Assembly: GCA_014896315.1 (NCBI GenBank)
Contig: JADBKP010000014.1
Coordinates: forward strand, 1-35,171
Length of the DNA: 35,171 nucleotides
From: Limnochordales bacterium
GTDB lineage: Bacteria > Bacillota > Limnochordia > Limnochordales > DUMU01
Reading direction: 5' to 3'
Under the pieces are notes generated by a model, which searched no databases, was not told the DNA's origin, and worked only from the letters and a program-made list of their open reading frames with translations. Shown piece after piece: positions 7,236 to 20,953 of this stretch. How positions within the stretch are numbered: position 1 is the stretch's first letter; each line of letters opens with the position of its first letter. Both the position numbers and the translations under genes were made by a program.

Positions 7236-8233
7236 TCACGCTGTTTGGATGGATTCCTCTCGACCTGGGTTTCCCTGTCCCACTTGCTTTCGTAAGGCGT
7301 CTTGCAGCACAGCCATCAAGAGATAGCCACGAATCCGGCGAAAGCCTTTCTCAGCGGTAAGAAAGGCCACGGCTACCCAACGGTCGACCTGTCTGCCTGA
7401 CCCCCATTTCTTGACCCGCTTGGCCTGCGCTGAGAATGAGAGCGCTGAGCACCTTGTGATTCCAACACCGCTGCTCATCAGCCTCCGGCAGAGACTCGGA
7501 GCGCTCCCCAGATCCCCAAGTGCCCGTCCCCGATCACCAGACGGGGTGCATTCATCCCCCGGTCTCGCAAGTCCCGCAATACCTCCGACCAATTCTCCAC
7601 TGATTCCCGGTAACCAGGAGTAACCGCTACCACCTCCTTGCGGCCATCTACTAAACCGGCTACGGCCACCAGCAATGCAGCTCGTTCTCGTTCTAGTCCT
7701 GCTTTCACGTAGATCCCATCTATCCAAAGGTAAACCACCCGTAGGTCGTCGAGCCGTCGTGTTCGCCAGGCTTCCCATTCGGCCTGCCATTGCTCCTTCA
7801 GCCGGGCCACCGTGCTGGCCGACACAGGTGCTCCCTCTCCCAACAGCCCTCGCAGGGCTAGGTCAAAGTCCCCCTCTGCCAGCCCGTGCAGGTACAGCTC
7901 TGGCAAGAGCTCGGAAACCTCTTTCGTGCGCCGCACAAACAAGGGTAGAATCCGGCTCTCGAACCGTTCCTCCAGGCCTCGCACTCGTGGACGGCGAAGG
8001 GTGATGGTACCCAGGGGAGTCGTTAGCTTCCGCGGCTTGCCATACCCATTTCGGTAGCCGGGTGGGCCGTCAACGACGGCCCGGCGCTGATACCGAACAC
8101 GGCCCAAAAGCTCAGTTACCTCATCCTCCAGCAATTCCTGAATAAGCTCCTGGATCCTATCCCGAAGCCATTCATGCAGTCCTTCCCAAGTGGGACTTGA
8201 CGGCAGGCTGCTCGATGTGGTCCGCTTGTCCAT
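7236..8233 (-). mobile_element. IS256-family transposase relic, frameshifted and internally deleted
   Basis: The N-terminal 250 residues (8233 down to 7478) match IS256/Mutator-type transposases: a DRIQELIQELLEDEVTELLG helix region, YRNGYGKPRKLTTPLG, and the catalytic-domain stretch VYLWIDGIYVKAG with a VIGDGHLGIW segment carrying the second Asp. The frame then breaks near 7490. In another frame the sequence resumes as LPEADEQRCWNHKVLSALI, the usual continuation. Within a few codons it jumps to the C-terminal KRVKKWGSGRQVDRWVAVAF region and ends near 7236. The roughly 100 residues that normally lie between, including the TNPIES-type motif and the third catalytic acidic residue, are missing. 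The element therefore has a frameshift plus an internal deletion and cannot encode an active transposase. Terminal inverted repeats are only loosely recognisable. Confidence 0.85.
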
Positions 8234-11251: not shown

Positions 11252-11329
11252 AGTCTATGGCGACCATCATAGGAATATCGACAATATCGTCGAATGACGC
11301 GAGGAATAGTGCTGAAAGGAAGGTGTACC

Positions 11330-12673
11330 ATGAGGCGTCTCCAGTTCATAGGGTTCGTGTCGTTGTTCGCGGTCATTTATCTGATGATCGCGTGTACGGC
11401 TGCGAGAGTATCGGCCCAACCGACTTCCAGTACGCCCGTAACCATCACGCTTTTCTTGGACCAACGAGACGTTCCCACCATGAACTGGTTCAAGGACACC
11501 GCCAAACGTTTCGAGGAAGGCCATCCCGGTATCAAAGTCGAGATCATCACCAGCGCAGGTTCGAACTACATGACCAAGCTGACAACTCTCTGGGCGACGG
11601 GCATGCCGCCGGATATTTGGGGGCAGGCCGGGACGGGGCATGGGTGGCAAAAGCAGGGGTGGTTGCTGGACCTGACGCCGTATGTTCAAAAAGATCTGGC
11701 TGAACTGGACGTGAAAGACTTCTTGCCGTTTGCCTGGCAGTCGGCGCAGCGGGATGGCAAGGTGTGGGGGCTGCCTGCTATCAGCACTGCTTCGCCGGTA
11801 TTCTACAACGCCGATATGTTCGAGGAACGGGGTGTCGTGGTGCCGCCCCATGTCTGGTCGGACAAGGGTTGGACGTGGCAGGACATGGTAGCTGCAGCCC
11901 GCAAGTTGACGGTAGCTAAGCCGGACGGGCGGCTGCAGCAGGCGGGAGTAGGGATCGATACCGACCCCATCGGGTACATCACTTTCTCTTACACCTGGGG
12001 AGCGGATTGGTTCGACGAGGATGCGTATCGCACGGGAAAGGTGAGCAGAGTTCTGATTGACAGCGACAAGAACAAGCGGGCCTGGCGCGAAGTACGGGCG
12101 CTGGCATGGGAGCACCACGTGGCGGCGCGGCCGACGGACGGATTCGACGCCTGGAGCGGGTTCCAGGGTGGCAAGGTGGGCATGCACCTGGGGGCTTCCC
12201 CCTGGGTAGTCATGGGGAAGCGGAACGTTTTGCGGTTTCGCTGGGGCATGGCGGCCCAGCCCATGGGTGAGGATCGGACGAGTATCGTCTACACTGACCT
12301 CTGGTTCGTGGGAGCGAAAACCAAACATCCCCGCGAGGCCTGGGAGTTCGTCAAGTACTTGGCCAGTCCCGAAGTCCAAAAGAGCTATGTCGCCATCGCA
12401 GATCTGCCGCCGGCACGAATCTCTGCTCTCGGGCCATATATGCAGCGGATGGCTGAGTTCTCCCGTTTCCAATCTGCCCAGGACATCTTGCTGGCTTTCA
12501 TGGGAGGCCAGCAATACGGACGGCTGCTGTGGCTTTCGGTTATCGATGCGTCCGACCAGTTAGCCGCTCTGATCAATCCCCGGTTGCAGGACATCGTCGC
12601 CAACCGTATGGGTGTGGAGGAGGGGTTGACGAAGGCGGCCGAATCAGTACGTGCCTATCTCAAGATGAACTGA
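11330..12673 (+). CDS. Family 1 extracellular solute-binding protein (sugar type), orphan
   Basis: A 447-residue binding protein. The start is ATG at 11330, with GAAAGGAAGG just upstream; an upstream in-frame ATG at 11294 lacks a ribosome site. The N-terminus is a signal peptide (basic MRR, then a hydrophobic core). It ends either at the possible lipobox MIAC, which would make it a lipoprotein, or at the VSAQ signal-peptidase I site. The mature part has the usual family-1 features: RFEEGHPGIKVEIITSAG, GMPPDIWGQ, GWLLDLTPYV, DGKVWGLPA, a middle FYNADMFEERG and the late EAWEFVKYLASPEVQ. It should capture an oligosaccharide or sugar outside the cell for an ABC importer, but no permease gene is next to it. 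It follows the exporter operon after about 80 bases and probably has its own promoter. Confidence 0.9.
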   Translation: MRRLQFIGFVSLFAVIYLMIACTAARVSAQPTSSTPVTITLFLDQRDVPTMNWFKDTAKRFEEGHPGIKVEIITSAGSNYMTKLTTLWATGMPPDIWGQAGTGHGWQKQGWLLDLTPYVQKDLAELDVKDFLPFAWQSAQRDGKVWGLPAISTASPVFYNADMFEERGVVVPPHVWSDKGWTWQDMVAAARKLTVAKPDGRLQQAGVGIDTDPIGYITFSYTWGADWFDEDAYRTGKVSRVLIDSDKNKRAWREVRALAWEHHVAARPTDGFDAWSGFQGGKVGMHLGASPWVVMGKRNVLRFRWGMAAQPMGEDRTSIVYTDLWFVGAKTKHPREAWEFVKYLASPEVQKSYVAIADLPPARISALGPYMQRMAEFSRFQSAQDILLAFMGGQQYGRLLWLSVIDASDQLAALINPRLQDIVANRMGVEEGLTKAAESVRAYLKMN

Positions 12674-12806: not shown

Positions 12807-14510
12807 TCACGCTTGGGAAGGCAGCGGAGCCCAGCGGCAGGTGCGGTTCACCAGATCGTCGAGGGTGAGCTCCTCCATACCCACGACCCAGCTTTGCATC
12901 CGGTCTCCGAGGGGCTCACGCCAGGCAGACGGGATACCGGCCGTACCGACCAGTACTCCGGCGATCGCTCCGGCCTGGCCGGCGGTGCAGTCCGTGTCGC
13001 CGCCGCACATGGTTGTAATACAGATGGTGCGGCCGAAGTCGCCGCGACCAAACCAAAGGCCGATGATGACGGCCGGGATGTTGGACAGGGTGTGCACCCA
13101 ATGGTAGCGTGCCACCCAATTGGGGGCGATTTTGGCCCAGGCTTCTTGCCAGTTGGACGACTTCGTGCAAGCGGCAACCGTCTCGCGGACGGCCCGGGCG
13201 AAGAGGCTGCCTGCCGGGACGTACTTCAGGGCCTGCTCGATGAGGTCAGGTACCTCGGGGTGCCCGTAGGCCAGACTGACCATGACCGCATTGAAGACCT
13301 CGCCGTACATGCCTTCCCGTACATGGGAAACCAGGGCATCCCGCCAGGCCAGTGTCGCAGCACGTTCAGGAGAGAGGGGAGCGACGAAGCCGCAGACTTC
13401 TCCCCGCATCTGTGCACCGATCCATTCGGCATAAGGATTGTTGAGCCAGGCAGACAAGGGTGGGAGGATTCCTTGCTGCATATTGCGGATGGCCATCTCT
13501 TCTGCAGTGCAGGCTACGGGGATTCTTTCCACCCATTCGAGTCCCAGGTCCTGGCTGGTTGGTTCACCGGCGGTTCTTTCCATGGCAGCCAAGAAGGTGA
13601 GTTCGTAGGCGGTATCATCGTTGAAAGTGTCTGGCCGGCGAAGGTACCCTTTGACCTCGCCATACTCCTGCAAAATCTTATCCTTGGGCCAGCCTTCGAC
13701 CGGCGTCCCCAGTGCCCCCCCGATCATCTTGCCCAGCCAACCCGCCCGCGTCCTGTCCTCGTACTCAGCACGGGATAACCGTGGCTTGGACTGTGGGGAG
13801 TGCTCAACCTGCAGTACCGGCTCTCGTGGCCATGCGGTTACGGTAGCGGCTAACCCCCGCCAGGTGGTGGGCCGTTCGGGGTCGTCATTTGTCTCAAGCC
13901 GTGTGAGAAGCCGCGCGTCGTCCTCCAGGCCGGGCAAGAGCGGCGCGGGGCCGTGGCGCTGGCGCAGGGCATGACGAATCAGCGCGATCTGCCGCCACAA
14001 GCGGCCGGCGTCGTCATCAGCCAGGGCTCTTTGCCCCTCTTGCACCAGGGGCTCGAGGTCTGTAGTGTCGTGACCGAGTTCACGCAGAGCCCGCAGCGTG
14101 TCCCCGATGTGAAAGATCCATTGGCGGCGTGCTTCCTCCCGCCAGGCTACCTTTGCTTGATCTTGTGCCACGGCTTTCTCTCCTCCCAATATGCGGCGTA
14201 GCGTGACCTGGGTGCCACCCGGGTTACCCACCAGGGCGTTGCGCAGGTGCTGCGGCAGTTTCCCGGCCAGCAGTATCAACGAATCTGGATCAGGATGGTG
14301 GAAGTAAGCGGCCAGGCGGCGAACCAAGGCTTCCGAAGGTCGCTCTACTTCCCGTTCCAGCTGGCTCAAGTACACGTAGTGAACACCGAGCTCTGCGGCC
14401 AGCTTGCGCAGGCTGAGCTTGTGAGCTTTACGTTGTTCCCGCAGCCATACCCCGAAACTCGTTGATGCTGTAGTGGGCGGCTGCGGCTCATGGCCGTACG
14501 AGATCGCAAT
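12807..14510 (-). CDS. XRE-type HTH fused to ADP-ribosylglycohydrolase (DraG/ARH family)
   Basis: The frame encodes, in order: an XRE/Cro helix-turn-helix at about residues 20-70 (VWLREQRKAHKLSLRKLAAE, then VYLSQLER), a helical linker, and from about residue 245 an ADP-ribosylglycohydrolase domain. The metal-binding signatures are visible: RTRAGWLGKMIGGALG, FNDDTAYE at about 296 and GGDTDC at about 503 followed by AGAIAGVLVG. Members of this family remove ADP-ribose from proteins or small molecules using two Mg ions. The fusion suggests a DNA-binding protein whose C-terminal domain binds or cleaves an ADP-ribose-like or sugar signal. The full HTH needs sequence upstream of the first GTG at 14373-14375. 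In the HTH frame there is no ATG/GTG/TTG; ATT at 14508-14510 after GGAGAGG is the best start, while an ATG at 14489-14491 is out of frame, so a frameshift is possible. Divergent from a solute-binding protein gene. Confidence 0.82.
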   Translation of the reverse strand: MAISYGHEPQPPTTASTSFGVWLREQRKAHKLSLRKLAAELGVHYVYLSQLEREVERPSEALVRRLAAYFHHPDPDSLILLAGKLPQHLRNALVGNPGGTQVTLRRILGGEKAVAQDQAKVAWREEARRQWIFHIGDTLRALRELGHDTTDLEPLVQEGQRALADDDAGRLWRQIALIRHALRQRHGPAPLLPGLEDDARLLTRLETNDDPERPTTWRGLAATVTAWPREPVLQVEHSPQSKPRLSRAEYEDRTRAGWLGKMIGGALGTPVEGWPKDKILQEYGEVKGYLRRPDTFNDDTAYELTFLAAMERTAGEPTSQDLGLEWVERIPVACTAEEMAIRNMQQGILPPLSAWLNNPYAEWIGAQMRGEVCGFVAPLSPERAATLAWRDALVSHVREGMYGEVFNAVMVSLAYGHPEVPDLIEQALKYVPAGSLFARAVRETVAACTKSSNWQEAWAKIAPNWVARYHWVHTLSNIPAVIIGLWFGRGDFGRTICITTMCGGDTDCTAGQAGAIAGVLVGTAGIPSAWREPLGDRMQSWVVGMEELTLDDLVNRTCRWAPLPSQA

Positions 14511-14530
14511 CTACCTCTCCTGCAGGTGTT

Positions 14531-14590
14531 TACTATACTTTTCGCCGCGCGGTAGGAATCTCCTTTGTAGTGTAGAATACCCTACACTAA
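14531..14590. promoter_or_regulatory. Palindromic operator candidate in divergent promoter region
   Basis: TAGTGTAG at 14568-14575 and CTACACTA at 14582-14589 form a perfect 8-base inverted repeat with a 6-base centre, the size of an XRE-family operator. TAGAAT inside it (14573-14578) could be the -10 of the plus-strand binding-protein gene, and TATAGT on the minus strand (14532-14537) the -10 of the regulator-hydrolase gene. The simplest reading is that the fusion protein controls both genes from here. The -35 elements are not clear. Confidence 0.5.
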
Positions 14591-14642: not shown

Positions 14643-15983
14643 ATGCAGGTAAATGGACAAACATCGTGGCGGCATCACGCTTGGCGTTTGATTCGTAAGG
14701 GGTTCTTGGTTTCGTGCGTGTTGCATTTGTTGGCAGCGGGCATGCTTCCGGCAAGCCCGGCAGCAGCTGCATCCGGACCGGTGGTGCTTCGCGTGGTTTC
14801 GGTGGCCGACCCCGGCGAAAACGAAATCCGCCAGGAGATCGCCCGCATGTTTGAGAAGCTGCACCCGAATATCAAAGTTCAACTGCTGCCCGTCTCCAAC
14901 CGCGTAACCGAACAGCTGGTGCGAATTGCCGGTGGCGACCCGCCTGACGTGCTCTACCTGAACCCCGGATTTTTTCAGTCCTTCGTACGCCAGGGCATCC
15001 TGCTGGACCTGACCCCCTACGTCCGGCGCGATGGCCTGGACATGAGCAAGCTGTACTCATCGTTTGTGCAGCAACTGCAAAACGACGGCAAGCTCTATGC
15101 CATGCCCTTCGAAGTAACGTCTATCGCCATGCTCTACAACCAGACTGCTTTCGATGAAGTAGGACTTCCGTTTCTTCCAACCCGGTGGAACGACGACAGG
15201 TGGACATGGAAGACGCTGGTGGAGTATGGACGGAAACTGACCAGGGATAGAAATGGTGACGGCAGGATAGACCAGTGGGCGATAGGCCTCGTTCTTGGTG
15301 CCCTTGACCAGATCACATATCCGTTTGTCTTCCAGAATGGTGGCAAGATCTTTGACGACAAGACCAATCGCTTTCTTCTCAACTCAAAGGAAAGCGTGGA
15401 GGCACTCCAGTGGATCGCCGATTTGATCAACAAAGAAAAGATCGCACGCGCGCCAATATGGGGTGGTGACGCTTTCCTCAATGAACAGGTAGCGATGTTT
15501 CCATATGGCAGATGGCTGAAGCAGTTCCAGTCGGCCAAATTCGCCTGGAATGCCGCCCCCCTGCCAAAGCAACGACAGGCGGCCACCATGATCGTCTGGC
15601 TGGCATACGGGATTGCTGCCAATTCACCTCACAAGGAAGAAGCCTGGGAGTTCTTGAAGTTCCTCATCTCTCCGGAAGTGCAAGTGCTCAACACAGCGCG
15701 TGGTCAGGCTCTTTCAGCTCTACCGCAACTGGAGGAGCATGCTTTGTTACAGAACGCGCCGCCGCGCGGTCACTACCAGGTCTTTGCCGGCGGCATTCCC
15801 TTTGCTCAACCGGTGCCGTACGCAGATAATGATGCCGCGGTTTCGGGCGAGATCTGGAACGCGCTCTATCCTGTTTGGTTGGGTAGGCGGAGCGCTCAGG
15901 AGGCAATGGATAGCATCGCCTCGAAAGTCGAAAGTCTGCTTGCGGAAAGCAAGAAGGGGATGGTCTCTCCCACGACGAAGTAA
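14643..15983 (+). CDS. Family 1 extracellular solute-binding protein (sugar type), orphan
   Basis: A 446-residue binding protein. The start is ATG at 14643, with a full AAGGAGGT at 14627-14634. It has a long basic N-terminus (about 20 residues), a hydrophobic core and a PASPAAAASG cleavage region, so it should be secreted. Family features are ARMFEKLHPNIKVQLLP, GGDPPDVLYLNPGF, GILLDLTPYV, DGKLYAMPFE, a MLYNQTAFDEVGL segment and the C-terminal EAWEFLKFLISPEVQ. A DRNGDGRIDQW loop near residues 200-210 has the spacing of an EF-hand calcium loop, known in some binding proteins. No permease or ATPase is nearby. It is transcribed away from the XRE-glycohydrolase gene across the palindrome at 14568-14589, so that protein is the likely regulator. 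Confidence 0.92.
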   Translation: MQVNGQTSWRHHAWRLIRKGFLVSCVLHLLAAGMLPASPAAAASGPVVLRVVSVADPGENEIRQEIARMFEKLHPNIKVQLLPVSNRVTEQLVRIAGGDPPDVLYLNPGFFQSFVRQGILLDLTPYVRRDGLDMSKLYSSFVQQLQNDGKLYAMPFEVTSIAMLYNQTAFDEVGLPFLPTRWNDDRWTWKTLVEYGRKLTRDRNGDGRIDQWAIGLVLGALDQITYPFVFQNGGKIFDDKTNRFLLNSKESVEALQWIADLINKEKIARAPIWGGDAFLNEQVAMFPYGRWLKQFQSAKFAWNAAPLPKQRQAATMIVWLAYGIAANSPHKEEAWEFLKFLISPEVQVLNTARGQALSALPQLEEHALLQNAPPRGHYQVFAGGIPFAQPVPYADNDAAVSGEIWNALYPVWLGRRSAQEAMDSIASKVESLLAESKKGMVSPTTK

Positions 15984-16474: not shown

Positions 16475-16605
16475 TTAGATTCCTTATCTCACCGGAAGTG
16501 CAAGTGCTCGGCACCGCGCACCGCAGAGATCTGGAGCTTCTCTCGCCCTCGTGCCTCATGGTATACTTGCAGTCGACCGGCGCGATTTGCTGGACCATGT
16601 GGTAA
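16475..16605 (+). pseudogene. C-terminal fragment of a third solute-binding protein
   Basis: The frame RFLISPEVQVLGTAHRR repeats the FLISPEVQVLNTARG segment of the binding protein encoded just upstream. Eighteen bases are identical (CCGGAAGTGCAAGTGCTC at 16492-16509 and 15672-15689). No other part of a binding protein is present, so this is a scar from a duplicated or recombined gene. A stop closes the frame at 16603-16605, immediately before the CRISPR leader. Confidence 0.6.
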
Positions 16606-16756: not shown

Positions 16757-19700
16757 GTTCCAATCGAACCAGTGTGGGATTGAAATTGGGAGGTGGCAGA
16801 GAGTGATCCTATTGCAGCGCCGGTTCCAATCGAACCAGTGTGGGATTGAAATCGTTCCCAATAGCCGACAGTTGAACGGTCTACCCCCAGTTCCAATCGA
16901 ACCAGTGTGGGATTGAAATTTTCTTCTTTTTCAAACTGCTTTACGAATTGGACGAGTTCCAATCGAACCAGTGTGGGATTGAAATGCGGTCGAGCCTGCG
17001 CACGCTGCTCATCGGCGGGAAGTTCCAATCGAACCAGTGTGGGATTGAAATTGTTCAAGCCCAAAAAGTATGCGTTTCATGTACTCTGTTCCAATCGAAC
17101 CAGTGTGGGATTGAAATGACACAACAGGAAGGCTCAGGAGCGATTTTGGGTAGGTTCCAATCGAACCAGTGTGGGATTGAAATGGCAATACCACCGGAAC
17201 AGAATATCCAAGCAGGTAGGTTCCAATCGAACCAGTGTGGGATTGAAATATGGTAGGGGATGAATAGTCCCGTGTCAATAGGGTAAGTTCCAATCGAACC
17301 AGTGTGGGATTGAAATACCATCGCGTTGTCGGACAAGCTTATCCGTACCGAGGGTTCCAATCGAACCAGTGTGGGATTGAAATGCAGTTGGCTGCAATTG
17401 GTATTCTTCACTCCAGGCGTTCCAATCGAACCAGTGTGGGATTGAAATTCAATCCGGCTTACATGCAACAGTGCGCTGAGTCTTGTTCCAATCGAACCAG
17501 TGTGGGATTGAAATTGAGATGTTGCGGGGACAGTTTCGTGAGCTTTATCATGTTCCAATCGAACCAGTGGGGGATTGAAATAGCACGAGCTCAGGCCGCT
17601 CGGTCAAGAATTTCACCAGTTCCAATCGAACCAGTGTGGGATTGAAATAAGGATCTCTTGCAGTCGTTCGCGATTGATCAACGTGTTCCAATCGAACCAG
17701 TGTGGGATTGAAATGGTCGCTGGTGCTCCGCAAACACTACAACGTGCCCTGTTCCAATCGAACCAGTGTGGGATTGAAATGAGAACAGTCTACGAACGTT
17801 ACGGTGCAGCGAACGGAGTTCCAATCGAACCAGTGTGGGATTGAAATTGGTGGAAGCTGTACGTCGCAAGGCGCAAGAAATCGGTTCCAATCGAACCAGT
17901 GTGGGATTGAAATGGTTACTCCTGTTCCCAAACCCCAATGCACCAGAAAGTTCCAATCGAACCAGTGTGGGATTGAAATTCGCCTCCGGGACGGAGACAC
18001 CGATCTTTTCGGCGAGTTCCAATCGAACCAGTGTGGGATTGAAATGGTGCGAACGGGTACCTGGGTCCGGATATGGCGCGGGTTCCAATCGAACCAGTGT
18101 GGGATTGAAATGCCTTCTATAGCCAGCAGCACACCATTCAGGACCGGCCGTTCCAATCGAACCAGTGTGGGATTGAAATGTCGGCGCCGGTGATCGACTC
18201 TGGCTTGCGTACAAGTTCCAATCGAACCAGTGTGGGATTGAAATAAGGGAAGGCCTACACCGTGCGCGGGGCGTATCAGATAGTTCCAATCGAACCAGTG
18301 TGGGATTGAAATCAATGAACCCGCTTCGCCGGTTGCGGGAAGAGAAAGGCGTTCCAATCGAACCAGTGTGGGATTGAAATGGTGAGCTTGCTAGGGGAGG
18401 CGGATAAGCAGTGTGGGTTCCAATCGAACCAGTGTGGGATTGAAATTGCAGAGATGCAATCCACGAGCGCTTACGGAAAACTGTTCCAATCGAACCAGTG
18501 TGGGATTGAAATGTAACCGTCGCGGCCCAGCGCTACGTGTGTTCAACGTTCCAATCGAACCAGTGTGGGATTGAAATGAATACGTCGAGGAGCTCCCAGA
18601 CGAGGTGCTCCTGGTTCCAATCGAACCAGTGTGGGATTGAAATCAAATGAACGATTGCAGCTGGTGGCGTCACCAGTGGGTTCCAATCGAACCAGTGTGG
18701 GATTGAAATGTAGGATCAGGCTCGATGCGGTGAAGGTGCGGTAGTCGTTCCAATCGAACCAGTGTGGGATTGAAATTTTCTTCGTCCAATACCAGGTCAG
18801 CCACGTTATTCCGTTCCAATCGAACCAGTGTGGGATTGAAATTCGCCAATACGGTGAACAAGCTACTGGGCTGGCTTGGTTCCAATCGAACCAGTGTGGG
18901 ATTGAAATCTGACGTATTCAGTCGTGGTAACCGCAACTCTGTCACGTTCCAATCGAACCAGTGTGGGATTGAAATGCCAGCACTGGCGCGGCCTGGCCTG
19001 CGAGGTCGCCGGTTCCAATCGAACCAGTGTGGGATTGAAATCGGCAAGCGCGATGCGCAAGCGCTTGTCCGGCTCGGTTCCAATCGAACCAGTGTGGGAT
19101 TGAAATTATTTCGAGCTGTGGAAGGCGAAGGGGATCATCAGCGTTCCAATCGAACCAGTGTGGGATTGAAATTGACGCATCCGTCCAGCTGTAAATCTTG
19201 CCATCATCGTTCCAATCGAACCAGTGTGGGATTGAAATGGAGCAGCAGTCTCATTCACGCGCGGTTTGGCGGTAGTTCCAATCGAACCAGTGTGGGATTG
19301 AAATTGAGCTCGGCTAGCGTTTCGGCTTCGAACTCCTGCGTTCCAATCGAACCAGTGTGGGATTGAAATTGGCCTTCGCCTGCATCTGGCCCAGAGCGGT
19401 GACGAGTTCCAATCGAACCAGTGTGGGATTGAAATGTGGGCAAGGCGAAACACGATGGGATGTATGATCTCGTTCCAATCGAACCAGTGTGGGGTTGAAA
19501 TGCTATTCATCTTGGCCTGCTTCCTAATGGGAACAGTGTTCCAATCGAACCAGTGTGGGATTGAAATGAGGTTGTAGTCGTCGGGCAGAGAGCCAGCGAC
19601 AAGTTCCAATCGAACCAGTGTGGGATTGAAATTAGAAGTACGGGTCGAGCACTTGGAGCTCGACGGTGTTCCAATCGAACCAGTGTGGGATTGAAATCGT

Positions 19701-20953
19701 TGAGCGACTGCCCTACGCCCAGTGGCAGGCGGGTTCCAATCGAACCAGTGTGGGATTGAAATCCGGAACCCGAGACCGAGGTCGCGGTGCCTGATTCGTT
19801 CCAATCGAACCAGTGTGGGATTGAAATATGTTCCCGTTGTAAATCTGGCCAAGGCCCGGAATCGTTCCAATCGAACCAGTGTGGGATTGAAATGTTGGTG
19901 GTAGAGGAGGCGTGAGCATGGACTGGGCAGGTTCCAATCGAACCAGTGTGGGATTGAAATGACGTGACGCTGCCATCGAGTTACGGTTGGCACAGGGTTC
20001 CAATCGAACCAGTGTGGGATTGAAATCGATTTCAGCAAGTCTCGCATTGACGCTCATTGTTCTAGTTCCAATCGAACCAGTGTGGGATTGAAATCTCGCT
20101 TGACACTAAGTCGCAGCGGCTGTCGTTTGCGTTCCAATCGAACCAGTGTGGGATTGAAATAACTCTGGCAGATCGATGTGGATTAACTGCCCGGCTGGTT
20201 CCAATCGAACCAGTGTGGGATTGAAATCAGGAGGGCGTAGAGCCCAGGAAGGAGGCTACCTGGTTCCAATCGAACCAGTGTGGGATTGAAACGGCTAGAG
20301 CCGGTCTTCTCGTCACCGCCATGAAAGAGTTCCAATCGAACCAGTGTGGGATTGAAACCGATGGGCCGGCGCTGTGCTAGCAGACAATAGCGTCGTTCCA
20401 ATCGAACCAGTGTGGGATTGAAACTTAACCCACGCGCCCGCGATCGTCAACCTGCCGCAGTTCCAATCGAACCAGTGTGGGATTGAAACCGCCGCCCCCG
20501 ACCCCGCGCAGCTTGCCCTGCTGGCAGGTTCCAATCGAACCAGTGTGGGATTGAAATCAGGCTGCCCGTGAGCTGTATTGTGAACGGGTCCCGTGTTCCA
20601 ATCGAACCAGTGTGGGATTGAAACGGGAGATGACAAGGCGTACGATGGAGGCTATCGACAAGTTCCAATCGAACCAGTGTGGGATTGAAACCAGCTCAAA
20701 CGGGATCGGTCCGCCCGTGTCCCGGTGTTCCAATCGAACCATTGTGGGATTGAAACGGTGCTGTTAACACTGCTGAGTTCAAGATGTATCGGTTCCAATC
20801 GAACCAGTGTGGGATTGAAACCAGCTCAAACGGGATCGGTCCGCCCGTGTCCCGGTGTTCCAATCGAACCATTGTGGGATTGAAACGCGTCCGGCGGATC
20901 TGTGAAAGCCGGTCCGCCAGCTGGTTCCAATCGAACCATTGTGGGATTGAAAC
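16757..20953 (+). CRISPR. CRISPR array, 64 repeats and 63 spacers
   Basis: The 30-base repeat starts GTTCCAATCGAACC and ends GTGGGATTGAAAT. I located 64 copies at a pitch of 65-68 bases, giving 63 spacers of 35-38 bases. The ATTGAAA(T/C) end is the 8-base handle typical of type I-A/I-B and many type III arrays. The last base is T in repeats 1-53 and 58 and C in 54-57 and 59-64. Other variants: T to G at repeat 13 (17552-17581), A to G at repeat 42 (19472-19501), and G to T (ACCATTG) at repeats 61, 63 and 64. Degeneration at the right end marks it as the old end, so growth is from the left. No cas genes lie in the window, so the effector must be elsewhere in the genome. The long open frames through the array are by-products of the repeat and are not genes. 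Confidence 0.99.
20692..20886 (+). repeat. Duplicated spacer with its repeat
   Basis: The 35-base spacer at 20692-20726 (starting CAGCTCAAACGGG) recurs exactly at 20822-20856. In both places it is preceded by a normal repeat and followed by one with the ACCATTG variant. A different spacer lies between the two copies. The shared variant shows that the copy arose by recombination within the array and was not acquired a second time. Confidence 0.95.

Follow-up and report, generated by a model that had tools for sequence, protein, structure and literature searches.

We have identified a gene that joins an XRE-type helix-turn-helix (HTH) to a complete ADP-ribosylglycohydrolase (ARH) domain in the 35,171-nucleotide stretch of Limnochordales DNA that was analysed (the window). 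The fusion is probably, at a probability of roughly 0.7, a local one-component transcription regulator with an enzyme-derived ARH sensor, acting at a palindrome between its own gene and a divergent solute-binding protein (SBP) gene. In the proposed mechanism, the XRE domain, probably dimeric, would bind TAGTGTAG-N6-CTACACTA between the two divergent genes, and the bound regulator would control, most likely repress, its own gene and the opposite SBP gene. The ARH domain, which comes from a metal-dependent glycohydrolase, would do the sensing, its metal site binding an imported glycoside or nucleoside, or a product of either, with a resulting change in DNA binding. Because the catalytic residues are kept, the ARH domain may also hydrolyse its ligand and so limit its own signal. 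An earlier note on this DNA had proposed a regulator of this design, and an ARH-sensor regulator at the palindrome is strongly supported by comparison, namely by the conserved fusion, the operator motif in paralogues and the importer neighbours; its DNA binding, dimerisation, repression, ligand and catalysis are what we infer from sequence.

The fusion is encoded as one protein on the minus strand, with the following parts:

12807..14510, minus strand: XRE-ARH fusion gene, 567 aa, start probably ATT unless one base of the assembly is wrong; stop codon at 12807-12809
14259..14462, minus strand: XRE-type helix-turn-helix domain, residues 17-84 (Pfam HTH_3/HTH_31, model helices, HigA match)
13779..14258, minus strand: helical linker, residues 85-244 (alignments and model)
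12816..13778, minus strand: ADP-ribosylglycohydrolase domain, residues 245-565 (Pfam E 6.3e-50; Z 33 to ARH3 and MJ1187)

We regard the frame as real because its product is 66% identical to a homologue in the congeneric genome G001 in a MAFFT alignment (70% and 64% over two segments in another comparison). Both domains of the XRE and DraG/ARH fusion recognized in the earlier note exceed their Pfam cut-offs within this single frame: HTH_3 (PF01381) at residues 23-70 (E 3.9e-9; 36.8 bits against a gathering cut-off of 23), with HTH_31 also matched, and ADP_ribosyl_GH (PF03747) at residues 257-528 (170.9 bits against 26.2), covering positions 2-286 of the 287-position profile. No Nudix match was found in the protein with Pfam, and the sensor part is ARH. 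An AlphaFold2 model built with 40 sequences as input had a mean pLDDT of 84.9 and placed the helices of the XRE domain at residues 19-29, 34-41, 45-52 and 60-69. Modelled residues 17-84 matched the HigA antitoxin in complex with operator DNA (Z 11.7), and the modelled ARH part superimposed on ARH3 and MJ1187 with an rmsd of 2.5-2.6 Å over 286-296 residues. The second part of the linker is the counterpart of the N-terminal helical domain in unfused ARH enzymes.

The gene lacks an in-frame ATG, GTG or TTG ahead of the HTH, its first in-frame GTG (14375) would split the HTH in half, and an ATG sits out of frame at the place where the start is expected. Such features might mark a decaying gene, but a pseudogene is improbable given that 567 codons are open, that identity to the G001 homologue is high over them, and that the HTH and the catalytic residues are intact. 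The only good start, ATT 14510, is preceded by AGGAGAGG, and the homologues in genomes G073 and G364 likewise have a non-ATG first listed start (TTG); a single assembly error would equally account for the absent start. Thus, either the gene starts at AUU or the assembly has one wrong base, and the N-terminus was taken as real because the HTH is conserved with relatives.

The surroundings of the fusion gene that bear on its regulation are as follows:

14643..15983, plus strand: divergent SBP gene, SBP_bac_1 (Pfam E 8.7e-44), the predicted target, with Shine-Dalgarno AAGGAGG before ATG 14643
14568..14589, no strand: predicted operator TAGTGTAG-N6-CTACACTA, inside TTTGTAGTGTAG-N6-CTACACTAAAGG, unique in the genome and with a half-site common to XRE regulators
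11294..12673, plus strand: second SBP gene, on the other side of the fusion (Pfam), 32% identical to the divergent SBP

The SBP_bac_1 match, with ATG 14643 as the best start, bears out the divergent arrangement described earlier, and the description of this SBP as an orphan holds locally, as no permease gene was recognized beside it within the window. The genome (G000) has 78 SBP_bac_1 matches in 2.6 Mb, seemingly unusually many, so one SBP neighbour is weak evidence alone and chance adjacency was considered. The divergent SBP is 24-27% identical to those beside other XRE-ARH fusions and is not their orthologue, and it is uncertain whether the second SBP gene is part of the regulatory unit. 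The 40 bases at 16480-16519 share 87.5% identity with the 3' part of the SBP gene nearby; no intact gene was seen in that region, and a duplicated SBP may have left this stretch behind. A CRISPR array (16757-20822) begins about 0.8 kb beyond the SBP gene and has 60 copies of the 30-base repeat GTTCCAATCGAACCAGTGTGGGATTGAAAT, spaced 65-68 bases among the copies listed. Elsewhere in the window are a 251-aa frame that by eye resembles an IS256/mutator-type transposase (7478-8233) and a 427-aa frame with the zinc-protease-like motif HEAFHVYQWD (669-1952), which lies beside ABC-transporter-like frames.

The palindrome, described in the earlier note as perfect, is indeed exact (TAGTGTAG-AATACC-CTACACTA). 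Some 58 bases separate it from the fusion's ATT start and 54 from the SBP gene's ATG, and the genome holds no other match at up to 2 mismatches. Taken alone it is only modestly surprising against chance: when the intergenic region was dinucleotide-shuffled 5000 times, 81 of the shuffled versions also contained a perfect inverted repeat of 8 bp with a spacer of 3-12 bases. The palindrome becomes convincing, and chance was dropped as an explanation, because the motif recurs at paralogous loci. The half-site TGTAGTGTAG (at most 1 mismatch) was found upstream of all seven XRE regulators, comprising four XRE-ARHs and three XRE-GHL10s, where random expectation by arithmetic is ~0.02 per 320 bp, and the four GntR/LacI fusions scanned all lacked it upstream. 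The XRE-ARH of G001 has a degenerate operator copy whose spacer is shorter, and G073 has the half-site alone, with no full palindrome. No sigma-70 consensus was found in the fusion/SBP intergenic region. An inverted repeat of this kind can fold into a hairpin, and might act in RNA or as a bidirectional terminator rather than as an operator; we give this idea hardly any weight, since there is neither a T run nor a terminator call at the palindrome, G073 carries just the half-site, and the motif precedes the start of every XRE regulator but of none of the scanned GntR/LacI fusions.

The paralogues that share this motif join the XRE module of the window fusion to F5/8C and GHL10 (glycosyl-hydrolase-like) domains in G000, G001 and G002. 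Each of these genes is divergent from an SBP gene, and each regulator/SBP intergenic region holds TGTAGTGTAG-N5-CTACACTACA. These three XRE-GHL10 genomes each hold one exact copy of the sequence GTAGTGTAG-N5-CTACACTAC, which is absent in exact form from 70 other genomes of the class, one of which (G049) has a 2-mismatch site; at up to 1 mismatch it was found among 398 genomes of the phylum in G000 only, the other 397 lacking it. The N6 spacing of the window site as against N5 could keep the two XRE regulators of a cell apart. In the XRE-GHL10 regulators, 37 of the 95 positions that are invariant in six GHL10 enzymes are changed, including His to Phe/Tyr and Asp to Ala/Thr, as would be expected of a sensor that has lost catalysis. 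At G000:C2 (L036:1136-8426), L037 and L038, the regulator lies beside an exported-type F5/8C-GHL10, an SBP and a cytosolic GHL10, and its sensor looks like a copy of a pathway enzyme for this reason. By these comparisons, XRE-GHL10 is a second enzyme-derived regulator with the same predicted operator: it shares with the window fusion the XRE module, the operator half-site and the divergent SBP gene, and differs in that its sensor is a discoidin and GHL10 enzyme unit and in its proximity to GHL10 enzymes.

A genome survey of the kind suggested in the earlier note found the XRE-ARH fusion conserved in four genomes of two lineages, G000 and its congener G001, and G073 and its congener G364; among 61 relatives of the window's genome it was found in G000 and G001. 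An unconserved fusion, named in the earlier note as grounds against its reading, was not the outcome. The G073 fusion (locus L058; Bacillota MAG, DUMQ01000069.1) came up when GTDB species genomes were scanned with an alignment as query, a single-protein query having returned nothing. GntR-ARH fusions occur in four genomes (G004, G005, G007 and uncultured bacterium L103) and a LacI-ARH fusion in one (G045), with no further LacI-ARH in 398 genomes of the phylum; G004 was called by alignment to a GntR-ARH query and the others by Pfam. Long-frame ARHs of G138, G243, G268 and G151 had, by eye, no HTH in their first 100 residues. The survey comprised ~1,800 genome scans including repeats, gene calls in neighbourhoods were mechanical, and contig ends limit some operons (G045).

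A tree of ARH domains has two well supported clades, one holding the XRE-ARHs, which are placed near the base of the unfused-ARH clade, and the other holding the GntR- and LacI-ARHs. Forcing all nine fused ARHs into one clade was 190 log units worse (p-AU 1.2e-57), and a single origin of all HTH-ARH fusions was rejected. This result means that there were at least two independent HTH-ARH joinings, and probably three in all. The AU test neither supported nor rejected a single clade of the four XRE-ARHs, or one of the four GntR-ARHs.

Eight of the nine fusions adjoin SBP or permease genes, one of them with a small gene between. The HTH-ARH gene is followed by SBP, MalF-like and MalG-like genes in G004, G005, G007 and L103 (GntR) and in G364 (XRE), and at L058 a glyoxalase-like gene separates the XRE-ARH from SBP/MalF/MalG genes; the G001 fusion lies directly behind an mtnA-like gene, not an SBP. 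An unfused ARH is present in four of the eight importer-linked loci, after the permeases in G004, G007 and G364 and after a permease fragment behind the LacI-ARH in G045. In the XRE-ARH operon of G364 the SBP is 57%, 50% and 44% identical to the SBPs of the GntR-ARH operons of G004, G005 and L103, respectively, so a single type of transporter goes with ARH sensors that carry two different kinds of HTH. Since the ARHs come from different clades, one HTH-ARH has been replaced by another, rather than the HTH simply having been swapped.

Unfused ARHs of the subfamily (from Clostridia, Brucella, Sedimentibacter and others) have the same domain behind a ~140-residue helical N-terminus and are roughly 29-39% identical to the window protein. 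They differ in having no HTH and in their neighbours: in the window's own clade, unfused ARHs adjoin genes resembling those of nucleoside importers (Bmp and BPD_transp_2) as well as genes for nucleoside hydrolase and purine nucleoside phosphorylase. Of 80 ARH loci scanned, which mix both clades and in which clusters were counted by similarity and named by Pfam from one representative each, 27 had a Bmp gene nearby, 31 a BPD_transp_2 permease, 19 a nucleoside hydrolase and 11 a nucleoside phosphorylase. At one locus (L061:6362-8588) a ribokinase-like gene comes directly after an unfused ARH, and amidohydrolase-like genes were recognized nearby by eye; this arrangement fits ribose release from nucleosides. 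At another (L068:8077-10074) a single frame adjoining an unfused ARH contains a LacI HTH, a periplasmic-binding domain and a PfkB sugar kinase and is another regulator-enzyme fusion.

The active site of the window protein is made up of the following elements:

13695..13697, minus strand: Glu272 codon, invariant in alignments
13611..13622, minus strand: NDDT motif, first half of the metal site (sequence and residue comparison)
13323..13328, minus strand: Ser395-His396, the His invariant (alignment and residue comparison)
12987..13004, minus strand: GGDTDC motif, second half of the metal site (alignment and residue comparison)

Both metal-site motifs reported earlier, FNDDT and GGDTD (here within GGDTDC), are present as written, and the dinuclear metal site is complete, with the Asp pairs of xDDx and DxD, the Glu and the His. 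Glu272 occupies what we take to be the position of the catalytic Glu in ARH enzymes. Together with Asp298, Asp299, His396, Asp505, Asp507 and Cys508, it is identical in all nine fused ARHs and in the unfused ARHs compared; Cys508 replaces the Thr of the classical DxDT, as it does in the compared unfused relatives of the subfamily. At other conserved places the XRE-ARHs are changed relative to the nucleoside-linked enzymes (Y274W, W334C/Y, S335T, N399E, Y475L/F), which suggests another ligand. We know of no characterised member of this ARH subfamily.

The intact site can be read in other ways. The HTH might repress just its own gene and the neighbour, with the ARH an ordinary hydrolase and no ligand signalling between the domains; retention of all catalytic positions, unlike in the NrtR/AraR regulators with their impaired Nudix motif (PMC4666351), would suit such an autoregulated enzyme. 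We consider this unlikely, as two or three independent HTH-ARH joinings and the separate unfused ARH genes in four of the fusion loci both argue for coupling, and the same HTH is found on a GHL10 altered in the manner expected of a sensor. Alternatively, the protein could be a DNA-targeted ADP-ribosyl hydrolase, or an antitoxin-like protein, that reverses ADP-ribosylation by DraT/DraG or DarT/DarG logic. Its fold does match DraG and ART-immunity ARHs as well as ARH3 in structure searches, but it falls far short of the equivalog cut-offs for DraG (TIGR02662; 32.4 against 337 bits) and for the Tri1 ADP-ribosylarginine hydrolase (NF041672; 29 against 490 bits), its neighbours are importers, and no ADP-ribosyltransferase was recognized among the fusion-adjacent genes, which were read without ART models. 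There is thus only a slight chance that reversal of ADP-ribosylation is its role. Of the ligands listed in the earlier note (ADP-ribose, a nucleotide sugar or a glycoside), the neighbours point to an imported glycoside or nucleoside and nothing was found for ADP-ribose itself; a glycoside or nucleoside would be the more likely ligand.

A bolder form of the ARH-sensor regulator, which we put forward tentatively and with some doubt, is a self-terminating sensor. Here a working glycohydrolase would be the ligand domain, and its substrate would free the protein from DNA or recruit it there, then be destroyed. Such sensors would have arisen repeatedly, each time through the joining of a DNA-binding module to a copied pathway enzyme: XRE, GntR or LacI to ARH, and the same XRE to GHL10.

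Among known systems, the NrtR/AraR regulators combine an enzyme-fold sensor, its Nudix motif impaired, with an HTH, and L-arabinose is the effector of BtAraR (PMC4666351). Like the regulator proposed for the window they are one-component proteins whose sensor is an enzyme fold handling ADP-ribose-like ligands, and they can control sugar use. They differ in their Nudix sensor, whereas the fusion has an all-helical, dinuclear-metal ARH with its motif intact and an N-terminal HTH of other families; the fusion would thus work like NrtR, its closest working model, and not be a member of the NrtR-type Nudix regulators. In E. coli, the separate GntR protein GgaR (YegW) senses ADP-glucose and represses yegTUV, in which yegU encodes an ARH (PMC10819704). 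Here too an ARH accompanies a nucleoside-type transporter and a sugar kinase under a GntR regulator, although HTH and ARH are separate proteins and GgaR itself is not an ARH. A survey of the ARG (ARH) domain describes systems where ARG proteins come together with HTH regulators whose sensors are Nudix or WYL; the consulted parts make no mention of an HTH joined to ARH (PMC9503650). We found no description of an HTH-ARH regulator in the open-access papers searched; subscription papers lay outside this scope, so that absence is unproven.

ARH enzymes have mostly been studied for taking ADP-ribose off proteins. The fusions described here point to an ARH subfamily linked to nutrient import that was recruited on more than one occasion as a regulator's sensor. 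Because its relatives adjoin sugar-import genes and unrelated HTHs were joined to it more than once, bacteria seem to have repeatedly made an ARH enzyme into a nutrient sensor. The regulator would offer a handle on the substrates of a large ARH subfamily, through the compound that releases it from its operator, together with a defined operator. It also presents a case in which an enzyme, related to another encoded in the same operon, may have become a regulator and stayed active.
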